From positions 1 through 11,161 of the forward strand of contig JAKAHL010000035.1 in the NCBI GenBank assembly GCA_021815005.1: a stretch of DNA of 11,161 nt, written 5' to 3'. Within the stretch, counting starts at the first letter, position 1; each line of letters opens with the position of its first letter. Origin of the DNA: Chloroflexota bacterium (GTDB lineage Bacteria > Chloroflexota > Limnocylindria > Limnocylindrales > CSP1-4). The notes below the pieces were generated by a model. It was not told where the DNA came from, made no database searches, and saw nothing but the letters and a program-made list of their open reading frames with translations. Both the position numbers and the translations under genes were made by a program. Below are positions 1 to 10,593 of the stretch, piece by piece.

Positions 1-1068
1 GAGGCCCACCGTCCGCTGCTCGAGGGCGACATCCCGATGCGCGACCCGCTGCCGCGCGTGGCGCTGGTGCCGGGCGTCGGCGGCGTGATCGCCGGCGCCT
101 CGGCCGAGGACGCCGGCCGGGCGGCCGAGACGGCGTACCACGCCGGGATCACGCTGGCGCGCACGAAGGACGCCTTCGGCCAACTGGCGCCGCTGCCCGA
201 GCCGGAGACGTTCCGCTTCGACTACTGGCCGCTCGAGCTCTACAAGCTGACGCTGGGCGACCCCGGCCGACCGTTCGCCGGCACGGTGCACATCGTGACC
301 GGCGCCGCGTCGGGCATCGGGCGTGCTATCGCGCTCGAACTCGCGAAGGCGGGCGCAAGCGTGGTCGCGGCCGACCTCGACGGAGACTCGCTCCAGCTGC
401 TCGCCGATGAGGCCGCCGCGGCGGGAGCGCCCCGGCCCGCCTGGGTGGCCGGCGACCAGTCCGACGAGGCGGTCGTCAGCGAGACGGTCCGGACGGCGAT
501 CCGCCGGTTCGGCGGGCTCGACGGCGTGGTGGTCAACGCCGGCATCGGCATTGCCTCGCCGCTCGAGGAGCTGGAGACCGCCCGCTGGCGCCGCGGCCTC
601 GAGGTCAACCTCACCAGCGCCTTCCTGCTCACCCGCGAGGCCCTGCGGCGGATGCGGGTGCAGGGCATCGGCGGCGCCATCGTCTACGTCGCCAGCAAGA
701 ACGCCTTCGCCCCCGGGGCCGGCTTCGGCGGCTACTCGGTGACCAAGGCCGGGATGGTTCAGCTGATGCGGATCGCCGCCCTCGAGGGCGGGCCGCTCGG
801 GGTGCGCACCAACGCCGTCAACCCCGACGCCGTCTTCGACAACTCCCGCCTCTGGGCGGGCGGCCTCCGCGAGCAGCGCGCCGCGGAGCACGGCATCAAG
901 CCCGAGGAGCTGGAGGACTTCTACGCCAGGCGGAACCTGCTGCACCGGCACGTGACGACCAACGACGTCGCCAGCGCGGTGCTGTTCCTCCTGTCGGAGG
1001 CGTCGTCCCGGACGACGGGCGCCGTCATCCCCGTCGACGGCGGCGTGGCCGCCGCGTTCCCGCGCTGA
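1..1068 (+). CDS. Bifunctional class II aldolase / short-chain dehydrogenase, C-terminal part (5' end outside window)
   Basis: The frame is open from base 1, so the gene begins upstream; the ATG at 37 is internal. The first ~85 residues match the linker that joins the aldolase half to the dehydrogenase half in RhaD-like fusions (about 680 residues): VALVPGVGG, then EPETFRFDYWPLE. The rest is a complete SDR Rossmann domain. It has the NAD-binding motif TGAASGIG (nt 298-321), an NAG motif (VVVNAGIG), a catalytic Ser (AGC at 694-696), the YSVTK catalytic motif (nt 733-747), and the usual C-terminal TGAVIPVDGG. Known relatives split rhamnulose-1-phosphate into DHAP and lactaldehyde and then oxidise the aldehyde to lactate. 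Because the gene heads an operon with a sugar importer and MtnK, I infer an aldolase for a 5-deoxy- or 5-methylthio-pentulose 1-phosphate, with the SDR half acting on the released aldehyde. The family is secure; the substrate is not. Confidence 0.88.
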   Translation, partial: EAHRPLLEGDIPMRDPLPRVALVPGVGGVIAGASAEDAGRAAETAYHAGITLARTKDAFGQLAPLPEPETFRFDYWPLELYKLTLGDPGRPFAGTVHIVTGAASGIGRAIALELAKAGASVVAADLDGDSLQLLADEAAAAGAPRPAWVAGDQSDEAVVSETVRTAIRRFGGLDGVVVNAGIGIASPLEELETARWRRGLEVNLTSAFLLTREALRRMRVQGIGGAIVYVASKNAFAPGAGFGGYSVTKAGMVQLMRIAALEGGPLGVRTNAVNPDAVFDNSRLWAGGLREQRAAEHGIKPEELEDFYARRNLLHRHVTTNDVASAVLFLLSEASSRTTGAVIPVDGGVAAAFPR

Positions 1069-1153: not shown

Positions 1154-2302
1154 ATGTCCCGCCACACGTACATCGCCGGGCTGCTCGGGACCATGCTGCT
1201 GGTGAGCGCGTGCTCCCAGACGCCGGCCGCGACAACCGCCCCCGTCGCCTCGACCGCCCCGTCGGCCGCGGCCTCGGCCGCCTCGTCGGCCGCCGCCACG
1301 ACGGCCGCCAGCGGTGCCCCGTCCGCCGCCGCCCCGAGCACCGCGGCCAAGCCCGCCCCGTTCGACCAGGGCCCCGTCAAGATCGCCATGGTCCGCCAGT
1401 CGGGCGCCGGCGACTACTTCCAGCAGTGGGGCCTCGGCTCCACCAAGCAGGCCGCGGCCCTCGGCTTCGACATGCAGGTCTACGACGCCCAGGCCGACAA
1501 CGCGCTGCAGGCGACGCAGATGCAGACCGCGATCGACTCCGGCGTCGCCGGGATCATCGTGGACCACGGCCTGGCCGACACCATGAACCCGCTTATCAAG
1601 ACCGCGCTGGACAAGGGCATCCCGGTCGTCGTGTATGACGTCGAGACCACCGACCCGCGCGTCGTCCACACCACCCAGAGCGACGCCAGCATGGCGACCG
1701 CGGTCCTCACCCAGATGACCACGGACCTCGGCAAGGGCGCCAACATCGGCTATGTCAACGCGCTGGGCATCGCCCCGCTCGACCGGCGCAACGTCGTCTT
1801 CCAGAAGTTCGTCAAGGACAACAACTGGAACGTCGAGTTCTTTGTCGGCAAGTTCACCAACGCCGTCGCGACCGACAACGCCGTCCTGGTGGACGCGGCC
1901 CTCAAGGCCCATCCTGACGTCACGGGCATCTTCGCGCCGTATGACGAGCTCACCAAGGGCACCCTCGTCGCCGTCAAGAACAACGGCCTCGACGCCAAGA
2001 TCAGGGTCTACGGCATCGACATCAGCAATGCCGACCTCCAGCTGATGACCACCCCGGGCAATCCGTGGAAGGCCACAGCCGCCACCGACCCCGCCGGCGT
2101 CGGCGCCGCCGTCGTGCGCGCCATGGCGCTCAAGCTCGCGAACCAGCTGAACGGGACGGACTTCCAGTTCCCCGCCCAGCTGATCACCCAGGACTACCTC
2201 AACAAGAACAACATCACCAACATGGACCAGCTTCGCGTCGCCATGCCGGAGCTCGCCGAGGCCAGCCAGATGACCGCGAGCTGGATCACGGTCGCGTACT
2301 AG
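1154..2302 (+). CDS. Sugar ABC transporter substrate-binding lipoprotein (ribose/RhaS-type)
   Basis: 382 residues. The N-terminus is a lipoprotein signal peptide: a hydrophobic stretch ending in the lipobox LVSAC with Cys20. A low-complexity Ala/Ser/Thr/Pro linker (about residues 21-70) follows, typical of tethered receptors in high-GC bacteria. The remainder is a type I periplasmic-binding fold (Peripla_BP_4). It opens with VKIAMVRQ, with GIIVDHGLAD, KGIPVVVYDVE and GIFAPYDELTKGTL further on. It should capture a sugar-like ligand outside the membrane and deliver it to the importer encoded next. The ATG at 1154 was chosen for the strong Shine-Dalgarno sequence. From memory of LsrB, the AI-2-contacting residues (including the IAPDANALP segment) are not conserved, so an AI-2 receptor role looks unlikely. 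Methylthioribose, 5-deoxyribose or a related sugar is inferred from the neighbouring kinase. Family certain, ligand unknown. Confidence 0.92.
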   Translation: MSRHTYIAGLLGTMLLVSACSQTPAATTAPVASTAPSAAASAASSAAATTAASGAPSAAAPSTAAKPAPFDQGPVKIAMVRQSGAGDYFQQWGLGSTKQAAALGFDMQVYDAQADNALQATQMQTAIDSGVAGIIVDHGLADTMNPLIKTALDKGIPVVVYDVETTDPRVVHTTQSDASMATAVLTQMTTDLGKGANIGYVNALGIAPLDRRNVVFQKFVKDNNWNVEFFVGKFTNAVATDNAVLVDAALKAHPDVTGIFAPYDELTKGTLVAVKNNGLDAKIRVYGIDISNADLQLMTTPGNPWKATAATDPAGVGAAVVRAMALKLANQLNGTDFQFPAQLITQDYLNKNNITNMDQLRVAMPELAEASQMTASWITVAY

Positions 2303-2313
2303 GCACCCGCGTT

Positions 2314-2347
2314 CGCTCCCCGGCCGCCGCGCCGCGGTCGGGGAGCG
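2314..2347 (+). terminator. Intercistronic hairpin between binding-protein and ATPase genes
   Basis: The arms 2314-2327 and 2334-2347 can form a 14-base-pair stem with one G-U pair and a 6-base loop. It begins 12 bases after the stop codon. No T-run follows, and the ATPase gene starts 43 bases later, so it is not a classical intrinsic terminator. Stem-loops after the binding-protein gene are well known in ABC operons (for example malE-malF). They stabilise the upstream message or attenuate transcription, so the receptor is made in excess over the membrane parts. Confidence 0.7.
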
Positions 2348-2389
2348 ACACCATGGCGGTTCGTTCCCTCCCCGAGTTCTGGAGCCCCG

Positions 2390-3910
2390 ATGGACGGCCC
2401 GGCAACCCAAGCAGTCGTCTCCCTCGCTGACGTCAGCATGGCGTTCGGCTCCAACCGGGTGCTGTCCGGCGTGTCGATGGAAGTCAGGCCCGGCACGGTC
2501 CAGGCGCTCATCGGCGCCAACGGGGCCGGCAAGTCCACGCTGATCAAGATCCTGTCCGGCGTCTATCCGGAGCACGGCGGGACCATCACCATGGATGGTC
2601 GGCCGGTCCGCCTCGATTCCCCCGCCACGGCCCGCCTCCTGGGGATCCACACCGTCCACCAGAAGATCGCAGACGGCGTCATCCCCGGCCTCACGGTGGC
2701 CGAGAACCTGGTGTTCGACAGCCTGACCCAGCCCTCGTTCGGCGTGCGGTTCTCGCTCAAGGGCATCCTGCCGCGGGCCCGCGAGGTCGCGTCCAGCCTC
2801 GACCTGAACTGGACCGACGCCGTCCTGCGCAAGGACGTGTTCGAGCTGGGCATCGCCGACCAGCAGATGCTGCTGCTCGCCCGCGCCCTCCACCAGAAGC
2901 CGCACACCCTCATCCTCGACGAGCCCACGTCGGCGCTCTCGATGGCCGAGGTGGAGCGCCTGTTCGAGGTCATCCGCGGGCTCAAGGCGCAGGGCGTCGC
3001 GATCCTCTACGTGTCCCACCACCTGTCCGAGATCGACACGCTGGCCGACTCCCTCGTCGTCCTGCGCGACGGCAAGATCCGGCTGGGGCAGGAGCGCCCG
3101 TTCTCCTGGAACGAGGTCGTGCGCGCGATGCTCGGCGACCAGGTCCTCGACGAGGAGAACGCGATCGTCGAGCGGCGCGGGACCGAGGTGCGCCTCGCCC
3201 TGCGCGGCGTGCCCCTCCGCCCGGACCGCCCGCCGCAGGACCTCGACCTGCGGGCGGGCGAGGTGACCGGGCTCATCGGCCTGCTCGGCGCCGGCAAGAG
3301 CGAGTTCGCCCGGGGCGTGTTCGGCGCCACGCCGTTCACGCAGGGCTCGATGCTCCTCGACGGCGCCCAGTACGCGCCGCGGTCGCCCGGGGACGCGGTG
3401 AAGCGCGGCGTGTACCTGGTGCCCGAGGACCGCGCCGCCGAGGCGCTGCTGCCGGGCTGGGACATCGCCCGCACCTCATCGCTGCCGTTCCTGTCCTCCC
3501 TGGCGCCCCGCGGGCTCGTCCCGCGCGGCGCCGAATCCAGGCGCGGCCGCTGGGTCATCGGCGAGCTGGACGTGGTGGCCACCGGCGTAACCCACAACGT
3601 GGACGAGCTCTCCGGCGGCAACCAGCAGCGCGTCGTCGTCGGCCGGTGGATGGCCGGCAAGCCGAGGGTGTTCGTGCTCGACGAGCCGTTCCGGGGCGTG
3701 GACATCGGCGCCCGCGCGGGGATCAGCCGCAAGCTCCGGGCGCTGGCCGCGGAGGGGGCGGCCGTGGTGATCACCTCGGCCGACGTGGACGAGATCCTCC
3801 AGAGCTGCGACCGGATCCTGGTCCTCGGGGACGGCGTGATCCGTTCTGACACCTACATCCGCGAGACCACTCGCGACCTGATCATCGAGCGCATGTCGGA
3901 GATTGCCTGA
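2390..3910 (+). CDS. Sugar ABC transporter ATP-binding protein, two fused ATPase domains (RbsA/XylG type)
   Basis: 506 residues, the normal length for the ribose/monosaccharide family with two nucleotide-binding domains in one chain. Domain 1 has Walker A GANGAGKST (42-50), Q-loop Gln91, Walker B LILDEPTSAL (174-183) and the H-loop YVSHH (207-211). Its signature is degenerate (ELGIADQQM at 152-160), as is common in this family. Domain 2 has Walker A GLLGAGKSE (297-305), a canonical LSGGNQQR signature (407-414) and Walker B VFVLDEPFRG with Glu432. The ATG at 2390 has GGAG five bases upstream. It powers import of the ligand caught by the lipoprotein. The stop codon is one base from the permease ATG, so the two are probably translationally coupled. 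Confidence 0.95.
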   Translation: MDGPATQAVVSLADVSMAFGSNRVLSGVSMEVRPGTVQALIGANGAGKSTLIKILSGVYPEHGGTITMDGRPVRLDSPATARLLGIHTVHQKIADGVIPGLTVAENLVFDSLTQPSFGVRFSLKGILPRAREVASSLDLNWTDAVLRKDVFELGIADQQMLLLARALHQKPHTLILDEPTSALSMAEVERLFEVIRGLKAQGVAILYVSHHLSEIDTLADSLVVLRDGKIRLGQERPFSWNEVVRAMLGDQVLDEENAIVERRGTEVRLALRGVPLRPDRPPQDLDLRAGEVTGLIGLLGAGKSEFARGVFGATPFTQGSMLLDGAQYAPRSPGDAVKRGVYLVPEDRAAEALLPGWDIARTSSLPFLSSLAPRGLVPRGAESRRGRWVIGELDVVATGVTHNVDELSGGNQQRVVVGRWMAGKPRVFVLDEPFRGVDIGARAGISRKLRALAAEGAAVVITSADVDEILQSCDRILVLGDGVIRSDTYIRETTRDLIIERMSEIA

Positions 3911-3911
3911 G

Positions 3912-4958
3912 ATGGACGCCCCTGCGACGCCGACCGCCCAGCAGGCGGCGACCCCGATGTCCGAGCGGATCCGCGACCTGACCGTCCGCTACGGCGTCAT
4001 CGCCATCACGATCTTCCTGCTGGTCTTCTTCCTCGCCTCGGAGGACACGTTCCGCCGCTCGACCACGCTGCTCTCGGTCCTGAAGTACGCGTCCGTCACC
4101 GCCATCGGCGGCCTGGGGGTCACGACCGCCATGGTGGTGGGCGGCATCGACCTGTCCATCGGCGGCACGGCCGGCATGGCGGTGACCATCTCCGCCATGA
4201 CCATGGTGATCTACGACCAGGTGGGCTGGGTGGCGATCGGCGCGGTGCTCGTCTCGGGCGCCCTGGTCGGCCTTCTGAACGCGTTCCTGATCGTCAAGCT
4301 GCGGATCCCGGACATGCTCGCCACGCTGTCGATGATGTTCGTCGTCCAGGGCCTCAAGCTGGTGTTCGTGGACGGCCAGTCGGTGTCCTCGGGCATGCCG
4401 CTGCCGGACGGCAGCTTCGCCGTCGGCCGGTTCACGCCCGATTTCCTCGCGATCGACAACGGCTTCGTGGGGCCGCTCCCCGTGCCGGTCCTGATCCTCA
4501 TCCTGGTGACCCTGGCGGCGTGGATCTTCCTCACCCGCACGCGATGGGGCCGCGTCATGTACGCCATCGGCGCCAACCCGGAGGCCACCCGCCTCGCCGG
4601 CGTGAGCGTGTCCCGCTACCGGGCGCTGGCCTACGTGATCTCGGGGCTGCTGGCATCGGTCGCCGGCCTGATCCTGTCGTCCCGCATCGGCCAGGGAGAC
4701 ATCTCCGCCGGCAACTCGCTGCTCCTGGACTCGGTGGCCGTGGCGCTGGTCGGCATGTCGGTCATGGGCCTGAACCTGCCGAACGCGTGGGGCACCTCGC
4801 TGGGCGCGGTCATGCTGGGCATCCTGATCACCGGCCTGACGATCGCCGGTGTCCCGTACTACGCGCAGGACGTGGTCAAGGGATCGGTCCTGGTGGTTGC
4901 CCTCGTGTTCAGCTTCACGCTCTCGCGCAAGAAGGCCCGCTACGTGTCCGCCGTGTAG
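3912..4958 (+). CDS. Sugar ABC transporter permease (BPD_transp_2 / RbsC type)
   Basis: 348 residues, highly hydrophobic, with about eight to ten predicted membrane helices. Family landmarks are GGIDLSIGG early in the chain, then GANPEATRLAGVS in the cytoplasmic loop that contacts the ATPase, and GTSLGAVMLGILITG before the last helices. A TTG start at 3903 would overlap the previous stop codon, but the ATG at 3912 has GGAG ten bases upstream and is preferred; the ATG at 3957 is another possibility. It is the only permease gene of the importer, so it presumably forms a homodimer, as RbsC does. AI-2 (Lsr) importers instead have two different permeases. It is followed after 43 bases by mtnK. Confidence 0.94.
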   Translation: MDAPATPTAQQAATPMSERIRDLTVRYGVIAITIFLLVFFLASEDTFRRSTTLLSVLKYASVTAIGGLGVTTAMVVGGIDLSIGGTAGMAVTISAMTMVIYDQVGWVAIGAVLVSGALVGLLNAFLIVKLRIPDMLATLSMMFVVQGLKLVFVDGQSVSSGMPLPDGSFAVGRFTPDFLAIDNGFVGPLPVPVLILILVTLAAWIFLTRTRWGRVMYAIGANPEATRLAGVSVSRYRALAYVISGLLASVAGLILSSRIGQGDISAGNSLLLDSVAVALVGMSVMGLNLPNAWGTSLGAVMLGILITGLTIAGVPYYAQDVVKGSVLVVALVFSFTLSRKKARYVSAV

Positions 4959-5001
4959 GCGGCCACCACGACTCCACCCCCCCGCACGGCAGGCAGGCAC
5001 G

Positions 5002-6231
5002 ATGTCCGAGACGTACGAGATCCTGGCCCCCACGACCGTTGTCGACTACGTGGCGCGCAACCCGAGGCTGGCGGCGGCCCTCCCGCCGGCGTCGATCAGC
5101 GACGTCAGGGAGGTTGGCGACGGCAACCTGAACCTGGTGTTCATCCTGTCGGGCCCCGGCGGCGCGCCGGGCATGGTCCTCAAGCAGGCCCTGCCCTATG
5201 TGCGGCTGGTGGGTCCGGACTGGCCCATGACGCCGGACCGCGCCGCGAAGGAGGCGAACGCGCTCCGGGTGCACGGGCGGCTGGCGCCGGGCCTGGTCCC
5301 GACGCTCTACGACTACGACGCCGAGCGCTACGTCATCGCGATGGAGGACCTCTCGGACCACGCCGTCTGGCGCCATGCGCTCAACCGTGGCGAGCGCCAC
5401 GAGGGCGCGGCAGCGGACGTGGGCGTGTACGTGGGCGAGGTGGCCTTCGGCACGTCGGTGTTCGGCATGGATCCCCACGAGGAGAAGGCGGCGCTCGCCG
5501 CGGCGGTGAACCCGCAGCTGTGCGAGATCACCGAGGACCTGGTGCTCACCGAGCCCACCCGGCCCGCGCAGCGCAACAGCTGCCTGCCCGCCAACGAGGC
5601 GGACGCCCGCGAGCTGATCGAGGACGACGCGACCGTCAGCGAGATGGGCTGGCTCAAGGTCCAGTTCATGACCCAGGCCGAGGCGCTGATCCACGGCGAC
5701 CTCCACACCGGCTCCGTGATGGTCCGGGCGGCGGCCGACGGCCAGCCGCGCTCCACCAAGTGCTTCGACTCCGAGTTCGCGTTCTACGGGCCGGTCGGCT
5801 TCGACCTCGGGCTCACCTACGCCAACTACGTCATCGCCGCCGCGCGCGCCTTCGCGCTGGGCGAGGACGAGCGCGCCGCCTGGGCCCTGTCGCTCCTGGA
5901 CGAGACCTGGCGCGCCTTCGAGGCCACGTTCCGGGCCCGCTGGCCGACGCGTCGCGACCCGCGCGTGTTCACCGACGACGTGCTGGAGCAGTTCATCGCC
6001 AAGGTGGCGGTGGACGGCATCGGGTTCGGCGCCGCCGAGGCGATGCGCCGGGTCGTGGGCCTGGCCAAGACCGCGGACATCGAGACGCTCGAGCCGGCGC
6101 TCCGCGAGGGGGCCGCACGGGGCGTCCTGCGGGCCAGCCGGATGATGGCCACCACGCGCCACGCCGATTCGACGGCAGCGGGCATCGCGGCCCGGGCGGG
6201 CGACATCCTGCTGGCGGCCCGCACCCGATAG
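5002..6231 (+). CDS. mtnK: S-methyl-5-thioribose kinase
   Basis: 409 residues, the usual MtnK length. MtnK phosphorylates 5-methylthioribose at C1 with ATP in methionine salvage and belongs to the aminoglycoside-phosphotransferase/choline-kinase fold. Visible landmarks shared with Bacillus MtnK are the glycine-rich loop GDGNLNLVF (39-47), VLKQALPYVRLVG with the ATP-binding lysine, MEDLSDH, the catalytic loop HGDLHTGS (231-238, Asp233), and the metal-binding FDSEFAFYGPVGFDLG (Asp256, Glu258; DPE in Bacillus). The ATG at 5002 was chosen because it aligns with the family N-terminus; longer frames reach back into the permease gene. It sits inside a sugar-importer operon headed by an aldolase/SDR and not with the classical salvage enzymes. 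This suggests import and degradation of methylthioribose or 5-deoxyribose rather than methionine regeneration. The kinase assignment is strong; the physiological substrate is inferred. Confidence 0.93.
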   Translation: MSETYEILAPTTVVDYVARNPRLAAALPPASISDVREVGDGNLNLVFILSGPGGAPGMVLKQALPYVRLVGPDWPMTPDRAAKEANALRVHGRLAPGLVPTLYDYDAERYVIAMEDLSDHAVWRHALNRGERHEGAAADVGVYVGEVAFGTSVFGMDPHEEKAALAAAVNPQLCEITEDLVLTEPTRPAQRNSCLPANEADARELIEDDATVSEMGWLKVQFMTQAEALIHGDLHTGSVMVRAAADGQPRSTKCFDSEFAFYGPVGFDLGLTYANYVIAAARAFALGEDERAAWALSLLDETWRAFEATFRARWPTRRDPRVFTDDVLEQFIAKVAVDGIGFGAAEAMRRVVGLAKTADIETLEPALREGAARGVLRASRMMATTRHADSTAAGIAARAGDILLAARTR

Positions 6232-6277
6232 CGCCCGTTCCACCGGAGGCTACCTGACCCTGGGAGGAGGCGAGGAC

Positions 6278-6640
6278 ATGAGCGACGGACCGCGCGAGGT
6301 CGCCGAGGCCTACTGGCGCGACGAGGGTGCGCGCGACGTGGACGCCGTGATGGCCCACTACCACCCCGCCGCCGAGTTCCGCGAGCCGGGCGGCCTCGTC
6401 CGGCGAGGGCACGCCGAGATCCGCGCGTACTACGAGGCGTCCTGCGCCGCGTACCCGGGCCTGTGGGTCAGGATCGTGGCCGAGATCGTGATCGGCGACC
6501 GCGGGGCGCTCGAGTGGGTCGCGGAGCTCACCGACCGCGAGGGTCGGCGATACCCCGCCAGCGGCGTCAACATGGTCGAGGTGCGGGACGGCAAGTTCAC
6601 CTCGGTCCGCTCGTACTTCGACACTAGCCACATCCCGTGA
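6278..6640 (+). CDS. NTF2-like (SnoaL-type) small protein of unknown function
   Basis: 120 residues. The order of segments fits the cone-shaped NTF2/SnoaL fold: an N-terminal helix (VAEAYWRDEGARDVDAVMAHY), the strand AEFREPGG, a helix with GHAEIRAYYEASCAAYP, and closing strands VNMVEVRDGKFTSVRSYFD. These are usually small dimeric enzymes or ligand-binding proteins; no specific activity can be read from the sequence. A very good ribosome binding site (GGAGGAGG at 6263-6270, seven bases before the ATG) and a 46-base gap after mtnK place it as the last gene of the operon. It may act on an intermediate or product of the sugar pathway. It is not LsrG, which has a ferredoxin-like ABM fold. Confidence 0.8.
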   Translation: MSDGPREVAEAYWRDEGARDVDAVMAHYHPAAEFREPGGLVRRGHAEIRAYYEASCAAYPGLWVRIVAEIVIGDRGALEWVAELTDREGRRYPASGVNMVEVRDGKFTSVRSYFDTSHIP

Positions 6641-6668
6641 CGCCGCCCCGCGGCCCGGCGACCCACCG

Positions 6669-6674
6669 TACACT
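6669..6674 (+). promoter_or_regulatory. Possible -10 box upstream of the GntR gene
   Basis: TACACT in the 115-base gap before the regulator gene resembles -10 boxes of high-GC bacteria. No convincing -35 box stands in front of it, so support is weak. It would allow the regulator to be transcribed separately from the importer operon. Confidence 0.25.
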
Positions 6675-6688
6675 TCCCAGCCAGTGCG

Positions 6689-6726
6689 CCGGCGCCTCCG
6701 CCGACGCGGGTGTGGGCGGACGCCGG
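6689..6726 (+). terminator. Hairpin between the NTF2-like gene and the GntR gene
   Basis: CCGGCG (6689-6694) and TCCGCC (6697-6702) pair with GGCGGA (6715-6720) and CGCCGG (6721-6726). This gives 12 base pairs with a two-base bulge and a 12-base loop. There is no T-run. It could end the importer operon, act as a roadblock in the leader of the regulator, or be an accident of high GC. Confidence 0.35.
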
Positions 6727-6755
6727 TTGGGCGCCGTCCCTGATGGGGGAGTCCG

Positions 6756-7502
6756 ATGGGCCGCGACATGACCGCCCCGACGGGGCTGGCGCAGCCGCTG
6801 ACCAGGGCCCAATGGCTTGCCGGCGATCTCCGCTCGCGGCTGCTCAAGGGCGAGTGGGAGCGTGGCGGGCGCCTGCCCAGCGAGAACGAGCTGGCCGCCA
6901 GCTACCAGGTCTCGCGGGTCACCGTCCGGACCGCCCTCAAGTCGCTCGAGGGCCAGGGGATGGTGGACATCCGCCACGGCGCCGGGACCTTCGTGGCCGA
7001 CTTCGGCGTCGCCATCCGGGCCGGCCTCCAGGAGCTGGGCTCCATGACGGCCACGATCCGCGAGCTGGGCCACGAGCCGGGCATGGAGTGGCGGACGCAG
7101 GAGACGCGTCCGGCGACGGAGGCCGAGGGCGCGCGCCTCGACATTCCCGCCGGCCAGCCCGTGGTGTGCCTCGAGCGGGCGGTGCTCTCCGACGGCGAGG
7201 TCGTCGCCTTCTCGTACGACGCCATCCGGCTCGACGTCCTGCCGCCGGGGACGGTCCAGCGCATCGGCTCGGGCTCCGTGTTCGAGGTCCTCGAGCAGGC
7301 CGGGCTGCGGCCGAAGCGGGCCTTCGCGCGGCTGCACGCGGTGCTGGACCGCGAGATCGGATGGGGGCCCGGGCGCCCGGACAACGGGCTGTACCTGTTG
7401 CTCGACCAGGTGCACTACTCCCCGGCGTCGGTGCCGCTGATGTACAGCCGCACCTACTTCGTGGAGGGCGCCTTCGAGTTCGTGATCATCCGCACCGCGT
7501 AG
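6756..7502 (+). CDS. GntR-family transcriptional regulator, HutC/UTRA subfamily
   Basis: 248 residues. The N-terminal winged helix-turn-helix of the GntR family is clear: LPSENELAASYQVSRVTVR (40-58) is the helix-turn-helix core, followed by LKSLEGQGMV and the wing RHGAGTFV (73-80). Residues from about 95 onward form a UTRA effector domain, in which HutC-type regulators bind sugars, sugar phosphates or amino acids. The ATG at 6756 has GGGGGAG just upstream; an ATG at 6768 is possible. It sits right after the importer operon and convergent with lsrF, so control of one or both operons by a pathway metabolite is likely. Most members are repressors released by ligand; the sequence does not show which effector is used. 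Confidence 0.92.
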   Translation: MGRDMTAPTGLAQPLTRAQWLAGDLRSRLLKGEWERGGRLPSENELAASYQVSRVTVRTALKSLEGQGMVDIRHGAGTFVADFGVAIRAGLQELGSMTATIRELGHEPGMEWRTQETRPATEAEGARLDIPAGQPVVCLERAVLSDGEVVAFSYDAIRLDVLPPGTVQRIGSGSVFEVLEQAGLRPKRAFARLHAVLDREIGWGPGRPDNGLYLLLDQVHYSPASVPLMYSRTYFVEGAFEFVIIRTA

Positions 7503-7506
7503 GGCC

Positions 7507-7534
7507 GCCCTGCGCAGACCGCCCTGCGCAGACC
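7507..7534 (+). repeat. Two-copy tandem repeat, 14-base unit
   Basis: GCCCTGCGCAGACC occurs twice, perfectly and back to back, in the 77-base gap between the convergent regulator and epimerase genes. It starts four bases after the regulator stop codon. A recent slippage duplication is the simplest origin. Confidence 0.85.
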
Positions 7535-7538
7535 GGCC

Positions 7539-7568
7539 GGCGCAGCGTGGCCCGGCGCAGCGTGGCCC
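7539..7568 (+). repeat. Two-copy tandem repeat, 15-base unit
   Basis: GGCGCAGCGTGGCCC occurs twice, perfectly and back to back, four bases after the end of the 14-base tandem repeat. A six-base pairing (GGCCGG at 7535-7540 with CCGGCC at 7572-7577) encloses the array, so the gap may fold, but no good bidirectional terminator is evident. Confidence 0.85.
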
Positions 7569-7579
7569 GGACCGGCCCG

Positions 7580-8311
7580 TCAGCCGCCGGCGGCACCGGC
7601 GCGCAGCTCCCCGAGCAGGTGCCGGGCGTTCGCGCCGACATCGGCGGTGCCGTCGAAGACGGCGCTGCCGGTGACCACGAGATCAGCGCCCAGCGCGCCC
7701 ACCCCGCGGATGTTCGCCTTCGTGACGCCGCCGTCGATGCCCACCGGGATGGGCCGGCCCGACGCCCGGACGAGGTCGCGGACGCGCGCCACGCGGGACC
7801 CGGTGGCGGCGCTGAACTTCTGGCCGCCCCAGCCCGGGTTGATCGCGAGGAGCATCACGTAGTCCAGCTCGTCGAGGAGCGGCGGCAGCACCTCGAGCGG
7901 GGTGCCGGGGCTGATGGCGAGGCCGCGCAGGATCCCGCGCGACGGGTCGTTCTCGTTGGCCAGGCCGCCGATTGTCTGGAGCACGCGATGCGGGTTGCGC
8001 GCGGACTCCACCTGGAACGTGAGCATGTCGGCGCCCGCCTTGGCGAACATGGCCACCTTCTCGAGCGGCTCCTCGATCATCAGGTGGACATCCTTGAGCA
8101 GCGGCGTCCGCTGCGCCCGGACGAACGGCTCGCCCACGGTCAGCATCGGGCAGAACACGCCGTCCATCACATCGGTGTGGACCACGCCCACGCCCGCCGC
8201 CTCGAGCCGGGCGAGCTCGTCGCCCAGGTGCGCGAGGTCCGCGGTGAGGATGCCGACCGAGAGCTGGGGCGCGCCCGCCGCGAGGCGCGCCGCCAGGGCC
8301 TCAGCGCCCAC
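7580..8311 (-). CDS. Ribulose-phosphate 3-epimerase family protein, LsrE-like
   Basis: 243 residues, a TIM-barrel epimerase of the RPE family. The metal and catalytic residues are all present: His45 and Asp47 in VVHTDVMDG, His76 in KDVHLM, and Asp193 in PVGIDGGV. The phosphate-binding GSAVF follows at 215-219. The motifs LSVGIL, DGVFCPMLTVG and KDVHLM differ from ordinary Rpe (typically SPSIL, DGHFVPNLTIG) but match my recollection of Salmonella LsrE, the epimerase homologue at the end of its AI-2 operon. Position after lsrF supports an LsrE-like role. The GTG start at 8311 lies six bases after the last base of the lsrF stop codon and lacks a clear Shine-Dalgarno, so translation is probably coupled. 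A housekeeping or allulose-6-phosphate epimerase role cannot be excluded. Confidence 0.88.
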   Translation of the reverse strand: MGAEALAARLAAGAPQLSVGILTADLAHLGDELARLEAAGVGVVHTDVMDGVFCPMLTVGEPFVRAQRTPLLKDVHLMIEEPLEKVAMFAKAGADMLTFQVESARNPHRVLQTIGGLANENDPSRGILRGLAISPGTPLEVLPPLLDELDYVMLLAINPGWGGQKFSAATGSRVARVRDLVRASGRPIPVGIDGGVTKANIRGVGALGADLVVTGSAVFDGTADVGANARHLLGELRAGAAGG

Positions 8312-8316
8312 CGGCG

Positions 8317-9216
8317 TCAGGCGCCCGTCGAGCCCGCCGCGCCGTGGCGCAGCGTCTCGAACAGCTCGAGCGCCTGCCTCGGGGGCAGGTCCTCGTGGAC
8401 GACCGCGTTCACCGCCCTGAGCATGGCCAGCGGGGCCTCGCTCTGGAAGATGTTGCGGCCCATGTCAACGCCGGCGGCGCCCTGCTGGATGGCGCGATAC
8501 GCCATCGTGAGCGCGTCGAGCTCGGGGAGCTTCTTGCCGCCCGCCATCACGATCGGGACCGGGCACGAGGCGGTCACGGTCTCGAACCCGTCCTCGACGT
8601 AGTAGGTCTTGACCATCTGGGCGCCCAGCTCGGCCGCGATGCGGGTGGCGAGCCGGAAGTAGCGGGCGTCGCGGACCATGTCCTTGCCCACGGCGGTCAC
8701 GCCCAGGACGGGCAGCCCGTAGCGCAGGCCCGCGTCCACCAGGCGCGTCATGTTGTGGACCGACTTGGTCTCGTTGGGCCCGCCGACGAACACCTGGACG
8801 CCCACGCCGCACGTGTTGAGCCGCAGCGCGTCCTCCACGTCCACCGCGATCTCCTCGTCGGAGAGCTCGCGCAGGATCGAGGGGCCGCCGCTGGCGCGCA
8901 GGACCACCGGGACGGCCGGGGCGGACGGGATCACCGAGCGCAGGATGCCGCGGGTGCAGAACAGCGCGTCCACGTGGCCGAGCAGCGGGACGATATCCAC
9001 GTCCACGCGCTCGAGGCCGGTCGTGGGGCCGAGGAAGTAGCCGTGGTCGATGGCCAGCATGACCGTGCGGCCGGTGTCGGGGCGGAAGACCCGGGCGAAG
9101 CGGTTCTGCATGCCCCAGTCGAGGGCTCCCGCGCCCTTGAGGTAGAACGCCCGGTTCCGCTGGGGGACATCGTGGTGGTAGTACTTGGCCTGCTGGATGT
9201 CGTCGGTGTCGGCCAT
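8317..9216 (-). CDS. lsrF: 3-hydroxy-5-phosphonooxypentane-2,4-dione thiolase (AI-2 processing aldolase)
   Basis: 299 residues. LsrF is a class I (DhnA-type) aldolase-fold enzyme that transfers an acetyl group from the phospho-dione made from phosphorylated AI-2 to coenzyme A, giving acetyl-CoA and DHAP. Similarity to the E. coli protein runs over nearly the whole length: [63 protein letters not shown] and [11 protein letters not shown]. The Schiff-base lysine is Lys203 in VKTYYVE, the same number as the known catalytic lysine. The ATG has AAAGGA seven bases upstream (9224-9229 on the + strand). It is transcribed first, with the epimerase gene second. No lsrK or lsrG is present in the window, so either they are elsewhere or the enzyme works on a different phosphorylated sugar product. 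Confidence 0.93.
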
Positions 9217-9993: not shown

Positions 9994-10593
9994 ATGTTCG
10001 ACCAGATGCTCTGGTTCGTCGCCCGCGGCTCGGGCGTCGTCGCCCTGCTGATGGCCACGGTGGCCGTCTGCTTCGGCATGCTGACCGTCGCCCGCTTCTC
10101 GAGCGACACGTGGCCGCGCTTCTTCAACCTCGAGCTGCACCGGCGCATCTCGCTGCTCGCGGTCGTGTTCATCGGCGTCCACATCGTGGCCGCCGTGCTC
10201 GACCCGTGGGCGAAGCTGGGCTGGTCCGCCGCGCTCGTTCCGCTCATCTCCTCGTACCGCCCGCTGCCCGTGGCGATGGGCGTGGTCGCCATGTACCTGT
10301 TCGTGGCGCTGATCCTGACCAGCCTGCTGCGGAGCCGCATGCCGCAGCCCCTGTGGCGGGCCGTCCACTGGGCGGCCTACGCGATGTGGCCGCTCGCGCT
10401 GGCCCACGGCTTCTTCTCCGGCAGCGATGCCGGCTCGCTGTGGATGATGGCCGTGGACGCCGTCGCCATCGGGGCCGTGGCCGCGAGCCTCCTGCTGCGC
10501 CTGTCGTTCTGGGACGAGAACCGCTCCCGGCTGGAGGACACCGTGGGCGCGTCCTCCTGGGACGAGGCCACGCGCCGCGGACGCGGCCGGTGA
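9994..10593 (+). CDS. Ferric-reductase-like transmembrane protein, b-haem binding
   Basis: 199 residues with about five or six hydrophobic helices. Two pairs of histidines, His49/His63 (LELHRR, GVHIVAAV) and His125/His138 (RAVHWAAY, LAHGFF), are 14 and 13 residues apart in separate helices. This is the arrangement that binds two b-type haems in the ferric reductase/NADPH oxidase/MsrQ domain. There is no flavin or NAD domain in the chain, so electrons must come from a partner. The NuoF-like protein, whose GTG start overlaps this stop codon, is the obvious candidate. The ATG at 9994 has AGGAG twelve bases upstream. A role in electron transfer across or into the membrane is inferred; the final acceptor is unknown. 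Confidence 0.85.
   Translation: MFDQMLWFVARGSGVVALLMATVAVCFGMLTVARFSSDTWPRFFNLELHRRISLLAVVFIGVHIVAAVLDPWAKLGWSAALVPLISSYRPLPVAMGVVAMYLFVALILTSLLRSRMPQPLWRAVHWAAYAMWPLALAHGFFSGSDAGSLWMMAVDAVAIGAVAASLLLRLSFWDENRSRLEDTVGASSWDEATRRGRGR

Follow-up and report, generated by a model that had tools for sequence, protein, structure and literature searches.

LsrF encoded among salvage genes for S-adenosylmethionine-derived five-carbon sugars in Chloroflexota suggests a possible route from waste to acetyl-CoA

In the window, a stretch of 11,161 nucleotides from a Chloroflexota bacterium, as in some other uncultured bacteria, LsrF, known mainly for destroying the quorum signal AI-2, sits with genes for the salvage of five-carbon sugars left over from S-adenosylmethionine (SAM), an arrangement that suggests a possible route from this waste to acetyl-CoA. 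A sugar ABC transporter, an aldolase/SDR fragment and a SnoaL-like gene, none of them mentioned in the sequence-only reading, accompany mtnK (Table 1). The transporter and the fragment belong to the same operon as mtnK and, since base 1 of the window is the contig start, this operon is cut at its 5' end. As the sequence-only reading had described, the MtnK operon and the LsrF/epimerase pair are convergent, with a regulator between the two gene sets.

Table 1. Features of the window relevant to the proposed salvage locus.
Feature	Position	Strand	Evidence or remark
C-terminal part (mostly SDR domain) of PRK08324-type class II aldolase/SDR fusion	1..1068	+	cut by contig start
RbsB-like sugar-binding protein, ABC importer	1154..2302	+	PF13407 115 bits
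ATPase of sugar ABC transporter	2390..3910	+	PF00005
Permease of sugar ABC transporter	3903..4958	+	PF02653
MtnK/DrdK-type kinase (5-methylthioribose / 5-deoxyribose kinase family)	4999..6231	+	TIGR01767
SnoaL-like protein	6278..6640	+	PF12680 62.7 bits
GntR/UTRA regulator	6756..7502	+	PF00392 + PF07702
Ribulose-phosphate-3-epimerase-type enzyme, paired with LsrF	7580..8311	-	PF00834 163 bits
LsrF (3-hydroxy-5-phosphonooxypentane-2,4-dione thiolase family)	8317..9216	-	NF006081

The window LsrF scored 489.9 bits on its family model (cut-off 297), found LsrF itself as its top PDB match (3gkf/3glc, 407 bits) and is 64% identical to Enterobacter LsrF. It keeps D57, K203, D251, R254 and the phosphate-binding glycines, the roles of the catalytic residues being those described in PMC2728841. 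Lys203, already recognised from the letters alone, is invariant in 10/10 aligned LsrF sequences; across 118 LsrF rows (117 different, L159 and L167 being one gene), D57, K203, R254, G226, G227 and G253 occur in all 118 and D251 in 102, with Asn replacing the LsrF-typical Asp251 in genome G478 of family f10. The neighbouring enzyme, conserved in alignment A2, had been called LsrE-like. It is of the RPE type, with the rpe model fitting best (176 bits, below the cut-off of 212.6); the 'epimerase' model PRK14057, which we take to be that of LsrE, gave only 114 bits against a cut-off of 530. A Salmonella record has, following lsrG, a product named 'epimerase' to which the window enzyme is 36% identical, so that the LsrE-like label is fair in a wide sense only.

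MtnK reached 361.6 bits on TIGR01767 (cut-off 275), with PDB 2pyw and 2olc as structural matches, and the top NCBIfam models of the transporter ATPase were monosaccharide ATPases, all below cut-off. The first gene of the window is by homology a member of the PRK08324 / RhaD_aldol-ADH family, with no model over cut-off: the window copy is a fragment covering positions 346-689 of the 689 of NF006190 (333.6 bits, below cut-off), and its full-length relative at L048 scores 554.6 against 567.75 for TIGR02632. The fragment contains PF13561 and PF00106 domains and, by eye, the YxxxK motif of the SDR; the Aldolase_II domain is kept in the full-length relatives L048, L049 and L050. The nearest single-domain models and structures of the SDR include 3-hydroxybutyrate dehydrogenases, and the nearest model of the Zn-dehydrogenase (ZnADH) found beside LsrF in other lineages is L-threonine 3-dehydrogenase, in each case below the curated cut-offs. 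Both 3-hydroxybutyrate and L-threonine 3-dehydrogenases act on a CH3-CHOH group placed beta to a carbonyl.

A fuller operon is found in L048, L049 and L050, where the order is SorC-type regulator (PF04198 sugar-binding domain), class II aldolase, MtnA, aldolase/SDR, ABC transporter, MtnK, SnoaL and GntR, facing epimerase and LsrF as in the window. Upstream MtnA and class II aldolase genes were present in 3/3 relatives whose contigs extend there; at L048 these score 402.5 bits (TIGR00512) and 161.6 bits (PF00596, putatively of the Ald2 clade), and both class II aldolases of that operon have intact metal/catalytic motifs on reading by eye. In the window's own genome assembly (G000, 72% complete), whose contig is cut where the relatives carry mtnA, that gene was not found. 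The SnoaL-like gene and the intervening GntR/UTRA regulator were each present in 5/5 MtnK+LsrF loci (the window and, by tblastn, L048-L051).

The claimed absence of the kinase LsrK and of an LsrB-type receptor was borne out at the model cut-offs. LsrK (NF008187) was over cut-off in 0/5 MtnK+LsrF genomes of the class sample (completeness 72% for G000, 85% for G088 and 90-93% for the other three) and in 4 of the 12 genomes searched, all of these from the group of five that carry LsrF but lack MtnK. FGGY kinases scored below cut-off in 12/12, all five MtnK+LsrF genomes included, where they reached 232 bits. The window binding protein scored 24.8 bits on the LsrB model (cut-off 384) and is 21% identical to Salmonella LsrB. 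LuxS was found in 0/12 genomes (control, 5/14). Read together with that of its relatives, the window operon is probably of the DHAP-shunt (5-deoxyribose/methylthioribose) type, rather than an AI-2 operon.

The search for co-occurrence of mtnK and lsrF proposed earlier was run in two overlapping samples, and the operons were linked in every genome with both genes over cut-off. Among the 151 genomes of the class sample, LsrF was over cut-off in 10, MtnK in 7 and both in 5, always on one contig and a few kb apart (5/5); about 0.5 such genomes would be expected by chance, a rough figure because the genomes are related. In the phylum sample, 5/5 genomes with both over cut-off had them linked. In the class sample 2/7 MtnK genomes were without LsrF, each having MtnA nearby; the corresponding figure in the phylum sample was 4/9, and there 28/33 LsrF genomes had no MtnK over cut-off. 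Homologous genomes in which the two operons are never linked, named at the outset as grounds for rejecting the connection, did not come to light in either sample. Nor did a separate lsr operon, as judged from lsrK over cut-off in 0/5 class-sample genomes (G478 of the phylum sample was left out of this check). Two sister clades within the window's family differ in the kinase that accompanies LsrF, which is MtnK in the one and LsrK in the other, so that one kinase is swapped for another.

Other Chloroflexota families and two betaproteobacterial MAGs also have LsrF next to MtnA, MtnK or MTA phosphorylase. Family f10 has LsrF in 7/150 genomes, with an adjoining SDR in 7/7, MtnK on the examined stretch in 3/7 and MtnA upstream in 6/7 (0.2-0.4 kb away in five and 2.3 kb away in L199; in the seventh genome the contig stops next to LsrF); MtnA, LsrF and SDR lie in series on one strand. 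Elsewhere we found MtnA-LsrF-ZnADH (G465, L171), an MTA-phosphorylase-family gene (below cut-off) with a class II aldolase against ZnADH-LsrF (G168, L178), LsrF-ZnADH with MTAP and MtnA near (G266, L213) and, in MAGs, aldolase/SDR-MtnA-LsrF (L063, Burkholderiales) and MtnA-LsrF (L113, betaproteobacterial).

Of 78 LsrF loci from other taxa, 52 had an SDR and 8 a Tdh-like ZnADH within 3.5 kb, the best dehydrogenase match being on LsrF's strand in 60/60; 18 loci had neither, and between 3.5 and 10 kb the same limits gave no SDR/ZnADH match. An aldolase domain was detected in only 33 of the 78, so LsrF is accompanied by a dehydrogenase more regularly than by an aldolase (60 vs 33). The epimerase stands beside LsrF in 24/78. 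MtnK was found at 0/78, and MtnA adjoins LsrF at only 2/78, a third copy (L108) being 3.8 kb distant and on the opposite strand; MtnA is common generally, in 44/50 LsrF genomes (43 over cut-off) vs 9/14 controls (8 over cut-off). Other kinases accompany some LsrF-SDR loci (rhamnulokinase-like in 4/78, IolC-like in 4/78), so several sugars are probably handled by the LsrF family.

The known LsrF substrate P-HPD, CH3-CO-CHOH-CO-CH2-O-PO3, is 4-dehydro-5-deoxyribulose-1-phosphate, that is, 5-deoxyribulose-1-phosphate oxidised at C4. We consider it somewhat better than an even bet that the locus serves the uptake and salvage of SAM-derived 5-deoxypentoses via C4 oxidation, with LsrF yielding DHAP and acetyl-CoA. 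The sugar, 5-deoxyribose from radical-SAM 5'-deoxyadenosine and perhaps methylthioribose, would be taken up by the importer and phosphorylated at C1 by MtnK, and MtnA, encoded upstream in the relatives, would isomerise it to 5-deoxyribulose-1-phosphate. From here two branches are conceivable. In the established DHAP shunt a class II aldolase cleaves this intermediate, releasing DHAP and acetaldehyde. In the other branch, its C4 hydroxyl would be oxidised by a dehydrogenase, which is the SDR domain in the window and the Tdh-like Zn-dehydrogenase in other lineages, to give P-HPD, and LsrF would cleave this with CoA to DHAP and acetyl-CoA; the configuration at C3 of the intermediate may be fixed by the RPE-type epimerase. 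The earlier suggestion that LsrF and its epimerase process a product of an MtnK-phosphorylated sugar gains from the gene order in several lineages and from the structural identity of P-HPD. The regular pairing of LsrF with a dehydrogenase in other taxa, the exchange of MtnK for LsrK between sister clades and the nearest models of the dehydrogenases also speak for the route. Gene identities, conserved linkage and the retained catalytic residues of LsrF are observed, whereas the substrate and every enzymatic step are what we infer. Several observations count against the route. With two class II aldolases in the operon, LsrF is not needed for C-C cleavage, and in the window clade LsrF and the SDR are some 7 kb apart, in operons that face each other. 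The genomes with only one of MtnK and LsrF, the scarcity of MtnK and MtnA at LsrF loci of other taxa, the 18 such loci with neither dehydrogenase, the other kinases at some loci, Asn251 in G478, the general commonness of MtnA and the failure to find mtnA in G000 also weigh against it.

The main rival remains that LsrF is a plain class I aldolase splitting the unoxidised 5-deoxyketopentose-1-phosphate into DHAP and acetaldehyde, with the SDR or Zn-dehydrogenase handling the aldehyde as alcohol dehydrogenase does in the DHAP shunt. It would predict the same gene linkage, both the fold and the lysine of class I aldolases are present in LsrF (PMC2728841), and PRK08324 fusions, whose family models are named for rhamnulose-1-phosphate, join an aldolase to a dehydrogenase. 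We nevertheless judge it unlikely: E. coli LsrF is described as a CoA-dependent thiolase (PMC7828210 and the 2014 paper it cites), a second, dedicated class II aldolase is already present in the operon of three relatives, and the closest likeness of the dehydrogenases is to enzymes that oxidise secondary alcohols in beta-hydroxy-carbonyl compounds. Still less probable is the combined AI-2 and methylthioribose island envisaged by the sequence-only reading, in which LsrF and the epimerase would degrade imported AI-2 (DPD) with another kinase alongside the DHAP shunt. The closeness to Enterobacter LsrF and the family relatives that couple LsrF and epimerase to LsrK speak for it, but it is weakened by the results for LsrK, LuxS and the binding protein given above and by 0 LsrG matches in the loci searched (window, L048-L138 and L167-L183; Salmonella query, tblastn 1e-3, a short protein with no positive control). 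Furthermore, the two kinases target different hydroxyls: MtnK phosphorylates the anomeric one. LsrK phosphorylates AI-2 at C5 (PMC2728841).

DrdK, of the same kinase family as MtnK, acts on methylthioribose as well as 5-deoxyribose (PMC6079011), which would allow MTRu-1-P to be oxidised at C4 and cleaved by LsrF to DHAP and methylthioacetyl-CoA. The window clade has Leu62 where most LsrF have Gln, possibly a room-making change, but Leu62 also occurs at loci without MtnA or MtnK, and the MtnA-linked LsrF of L063 and L167 keep Gln. Acireductone dioxygenase (MtnD, PF03079) was over cut-off in 0/9 genomes, weak in 2 (control seen in 5/14, over cut-off in 2/14), which makes a classical methionine salvage pathway improbable here, and we regard this variant as very unlikely. 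A chance meeting of two unrelated catabolic operons in one lineage seems the least credible account: four of the five phylum-sample cases do fall in one LsrF clade, where the gene sets are convergent and not co-transcribed, but f10 has MtnA, LsrF and SDR serially on one strand, and linkage of LsrF to MtnA or MTA phosphorylase is seen in additional lineages.

Beyond this locus, we put forward, with somewhat less than even confidence, that LsrF originally and more widely serves to cleave oxidised 5-deoxyketose-1-phosphates thiolytically, in a 'thiolytic DHAP shunt' resembling beta-oxidation, and that enterobacteria borrowed it for the special case of AI-2 degradation. In this shunt a sugar kinase or phosphorylase would be followed by an isomerase, a C4 dehydrogenase and LsrF, with DHAP and acetyl-CoA as products; enterobacterial LsrK and LsrG would reach the same P-HPD by another road, and the LsrF-dehydrogenase pair beside the green sulfur bacterial RuBisCO-like protein (RLP) would perform the same chemistry. 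If true, LsrF, filed as a quorum-sensing enzyme, would have a metabolic role where no AI-2 machinery was found, lsrF alone would be poor evidence of AI-2 signalling, and the dehydrogenases would gain a testable substrate, perhaps with a clue to the RLPs beside LsrF in Chlorobiaceae.

The locus shares with the Lsr AI-2 system (LsrK, LsrF, LsrG, LsrACDB, LsrR, LsrE) the LsrF family, an RPE-type epimerase and an importer of the sugar ABC class; it differs in that MtnK replaces LsrK, neither an LsrB-type receptor nor LuxS was found, and a dehydrogenase would replace the P-DPD isomerisation step. Compared with the PRK08324 / RhaD_aldol-ADH family at large, the fusion is tied here to MtnA/MtnK and LsrF, and a role of this fusion on rhamnulose-1-phosphate would be putative. 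The MTA-isoprenoid shunt of Rhodospirillum rubrum, which uses an RLP (PMC5893883), likewise passes through MtnA, but no RLP match was obtained in the window or L048-L051; an RLP-type gene does accompany MtnA-LsrF-SDR in some f10 loci (L167, L201, L203), and Chlorobiaceae have an RLP with aldolase/SDR-LsrF.

Another close parallel is the DHAP shunt (DrdK-DrdI-DrdA in Bacillus thuringiensis; MtnK-MtnA-Ald2 in E. coli ATCC 25922), whose kinase, isomerase and class II aldolase belong to the families that share an operon, and a transporter, in the relatives of the window. The PF04198-domain regulator of the relatives also resembles the E. coli repressor MtnR (PMC12632272). MtnR/YjhU is presumably a regulator of the type with this domain. 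In the main text of part of the DHAP-shunt literature, 'lsr' has 0 occurrences. Aerobic growth of E. coli on 5-deoxyribose loses two carbons as acetaldehyde/ethanol, a reported limit (PMC10986504); the proposed route, if true, would be a carbon-saving branch of SAM by-product salvage by which every carbon of 5-deoxyribose enters central metabolism, in the form of DHAP and acetyl-CoA. Where the published shunt ends in an aldehyde, the present locus adds LsrF, the epimerase, the aldolase/SDR fusion and the SnoaL-like protein.

The sequence-only reading had placed an MtnK operon opposite an LsrF-epimerase pair, and this observation was correct, MtnK and LsrF both scoring clearly above their curated cut-offs; its picture of the surrounding genes proved incomplete. 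The two genes at 9994-10593 and 10.6-11.16 kb showed no tie to the MtnK/LsrF finding.

Genes assigned in the window (SDR, short-chain dehydrogenase)
Feature	Position	Strand	Evidence or remark
Aldolase/SDR fusion, C-terminal fragment	1-1068	+	profile searches
Sugar-binding protein, ABC ATPase, permease	1154-4958	+	profile searches
MtnK	4999-6231	+	361.6 bits (curated cut-off 275); matches solved MTR kinase 2olc
SnoaL-like protein	6278-6640	+	profile searches
GntR/UTRA regulator	6756-7502	+	profile searches
RPE-type epimerase	8311-7580	-	profile searches; faces the + strand genes
LsrF	9216-8317	-	489.9 bits (curated cut-off 297); matches solved LsrF 3glc
Ferric-reductase-like membrane protein	9994-10593		PF01794
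NuoF/RnfC-type-looking open reading frame	10.6-11.16 kb		by eye

The assembly (G000; 2.05 Mb, 72% complete) has its contig start at window base 1, and the 5' part of the operon was read from the farther-reaching contigs of three relatives, L048 (genome G141), L049 (G088) and L050 (G008). There a SorC-type regulator (PF04198) comes first, followed by a class II aldolase (PF00596), MtnA (402.5 bits with TIGR00512 in L048) and the complete aldolase/SDR fusion, and after these by the transporter, MtnK, SnoaL and GntR genes, with LsrF and the epimerase opposing; families were assigned by profile scan in L048 and by homology in L049 and L050. The MtnK and LsrF of G088 share 97-98% identity with the window copies. 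When G000 was searched at the DNA level with the relatives' upstream part, the start of the window scored 792 bits, and all other matches were short and did not exceed 69 bits, so we infer, rather than see, an mtnA in G000. The window locus is classed as a putative DHAP-shunt operon with an LsrF module attached.

The linkage of the two genes extends beyond the window, since MtnK and LsrF were linked in all five genomes carrying both, in each of two overlapping samples. In the class sample (151 genomes; LsrF over cut-off in 10, MtnK in 7, both in 5) they share a contig and are separated by a few kb, and they were likewise linked in 5/5 in the phylum sample (400 genomes; LsrF in 33, MtnK in 9, both in 5). 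The samples share G000, G088, G008 and G083, the fifth genome being G141 (class) or G478, from another family (phylum). MtnK without LsrF was found in G090 and G065 (class) and in G065, G269, G313 and G321 (phylum), and LsrF without MtnK in 5 of 10 and 28 of 33 LsrF genomes, respectively. LsrK over cut-off directly adjoins LsrF in four of the five class-sample genomes that have LsrF and no MtnK; the fifth, G150, has no LsrK over cut-off, and its contig end adjoins LsrF. In the LsrF tree (118 rows, 117 different), the five-row MtnK clade (support 100/98) is sister to the four-row LsrK clade (98/75), the two being joined at 97/90. The simplest reading is that the kinase was replaced while LsrF and the epimerase remained.

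The loci of the LsrK sister clade (L053, L054, L055 and L056) carry LsrK and a 2-hydroxyacid-dehydrogenase-like gene, and L053, the only one Pfam-tested for this, also has a glyoxalase/VOC gene. No LsrG match was found in these four loci, and their gene set offers a possible alternative to LsrG. In L051 (G083), a URO-D-family protein (PF01208; 5093-6217, - strand) lies downstream of the epimerase, and a clustered relative is also present in the LsrF locus L082.

The substrate of LsrF, P-HPD, is CH3-CO-CHOH-CO-CH2-OPO3, and 5-deoxyribulose-1-phosphate is CH3-CHOH-CHOH-CO-CH2-OPO3; a single oxidation at C4 separates them. The DHAP shunt and the LsrF pathway would be connected by a dehydrogenase that acts on a methyl-carbinol beta to a carbonyl. 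Near named relatives of the two dehydrogenase types encoded in LsrF loci, all below cut-off, are 3-hydroxybutyrate dehydrogenase for the SDR and L-threonine 3-dehydrogenase for the Tdh-like Zn-dehydrogenase (ZnADH), and both of these named enzymes oxidise a methyl-carbinol beta to a carbonyl.

A dehydrogenase of one of these two types is the more constant partner of LsrF. Of the best 80 LsrF loci listed from named genomes, where more exist, L059 and L060 are the G008 and G141 loci again, so that 78 from other taxa were counted; counts were made by tblastn, ORF clustering having missed genes such as the aldolase/SDR of L081. In 52 of the 78, LsrF has an SDR no more than 3.5 kb away, and in 8 a ZnADH, with the best match on LsrF's strand in 60/60 loci having either; 54 of 56 separate SDR matches within that distance are also on this strand. 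No SDR was found 3.5-10 kb from LsrF across ~650 kb, many of these far stretches being alike, and likewise none at a weaker limit or in two listed loci examined match by match. The aldolase domain was found in only 33 of the 78 and is therefore often absent where the dehydrogenase stays. Neither dehydrogenase was detected in 18, of which 10 have more than 1.5 kb on both sides. The same loci contain the epimerase (24), a RuBisCO-like protein (RLP; 14), PDH-E1-like genes (9), a rhamnulokinase-like kinase (4), an IolC-like kinase (4) and MtnA (3, two adjacent to LsrF); MtnK was found in 0/78, and LsrK in none at a 300-bit limit, with weaker matches in L108 and L127. Within the phylum, an SDR or ZnADH is no farther than 3.5 kb from LsrF in 25 of 41 LsrF loci (40 genomes; G186, G315, G367 and G382 left out), a count that omits generic SDR matches of at most 109 bits (L055, L056, L169, L170) and L217, where the contig breaks off within the aldolase domain. 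In the window clade, the SDR is not adjacent to LsrF and is the most distant part of the operon that faces it.

Fourteen Chlorobiaceae loci (L067, L071, L078, L083, L085, L091, L092, L095, L098, L101, L105, L128, L130, L132) conserve the order aldolase/SDR fusion, LsrF, RLP, second SDR; according to PMC5893883, what the Photo-type RLP2 of Rhodopseudomonas palustris does is an open question. Five further loci (L062, L082, L088, L102, L109) have LsrF-epimerase-SDR, with or without the aldolase domain, near PDH-E1-like genes in 5/5, together with an IolC-like kinase in all except L062 and, in some of them, FBA-like aldolase or E2-like genes; this group apparently represents a different sugar pathway with the same LsrF module.

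The association with MtnA recurs in other lineages. In another family of the phylum (f10), LsrF is present in 7 of 150 sampled genomes; an SDR adjoins it in all seven stretches and MtnA lies upstream in six, the seventh contig (L200) stopping beside LsrF. MtnK and a second MtnA lie farther away in three (L167, L201, L204), and in some stretches a class II aldolase domain follows, along with transketolase halves and an RLP. Genome G465 has MtnA-LsrF-ZnADH (L171) and a second LsrF (L206) without any of these partners. In G168 (L178), ZnADH-LsrF is faced by a class II aldolase and by a gene of the MTA phosphorylase (MTAP) family that stays under its cut-off (118 bits against 274.85), and in G266 (L213) MTAP (300.4 bits, same cut-off) and MtnA lie near LsrF-ZnADH. 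The order aldolase/SDR-MtnA-LsrF was found in a Burkholderiales MAG (L063) and MtnA-LsrF in a betaproteobacterial MAG (L113). Overall, 11 of the 41 phylum loci have MtnA, and 14 have MtnA, MtnK or MTAP.

The window LsrF retains all residues named in the structure paper (PMC2728841), namely Asp57, Lys203, Asp251, Arg254 and the phosphate-binding glycines. Lys203 is invariant across the 118 rows, and Asp251 is replaced by Asn in 16 (15 different genes), including L167. These form a divergent subgroup (L148-L162 and L167), mostly adjoining a Zn-dehydrogenase, SDR or aldolase/SDR fusion; in its member G294 (L153, L208) none of the three was found within 14.5 kb. Residue 62 (window numbering) is Gln in 103 rows, Leu in 13 (the entire window clade, 5/5, and L070, L081, L113, L118, L160-L162 and L172) and Met in 2 (L106, L171). 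As a marker of MtnA-linked LsrF it was rejected, L063, L108 and L167 having Gln and L171 Met; it is kept only as a lead, because Leu also occurs in loci without MtnA or MtnK and the MtnA-linked types vary. An AlphaFold model of the window LsrF, built from ten sequences, had a mean pLDDT of 66.8, and no conclusion is based on it.

Of the two options offered by the sequence-only reading, a combined salvage island for AI-2 and methylthioribose or a new pathway, the former was dropped as first choice after checks for LsrK, LuxS, LsrB and LsrG. Classical methionine salvage was also set aside, no acireductone dioxygenase being found over cut-off. Several points speak against the proposed LsrF route. 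The relatives' operon encodes a pair of class II aldolases whose motifs are intact, so LsrF may be dispensable to the classical shunt, and LsrF itself might act as a plain aldolase. Moreover, MtnK-MtnA is found without LsrF as well, some of the LsrF-SDR loci carry kinases for other sugars, and the epimerase and SnoaL protein are assigned no step in the putative route. MtnA anywhere in the genome (44/50 LsrF genomes, 9/14 controls) carries little weight, because it is also common in controls.

In the open-access literature, LsrF was not found joined to 5-deoxyribulose or to a RuBisCO-like protein, nor the DHAP shunt to thiolase and acetyl-CoA. The sole match for LsrF with MtnK concerns plant salt stress by its title and abstract start; by title, the listed matches for LsrF with MtnA are all unrelated, and none for 'phosphonooxypentane' deals with an LsrF-DHAP-shunt link. 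Absence from literature of open-access scope is not proof of novelty. The published shunt, as described in PMC6079011, converts 5-deoxyribose via 5-deoxyribose-1-phosphate and 5-deoxyribulose-1-phosphate to DHAP and acetaldehyde, and E. coli LsrF is described as splitting phosphorylated AI-2 into acetyl-CoA and DHAP (PMC7828210). During aerobic growth on 5-deoxyribose, E. coli reportedly excretes the carbon of acetaldehyde as ethanol and so loses it (PMC10986504); the advantage of the proposed LsrF route, if true, could be carbon retention.
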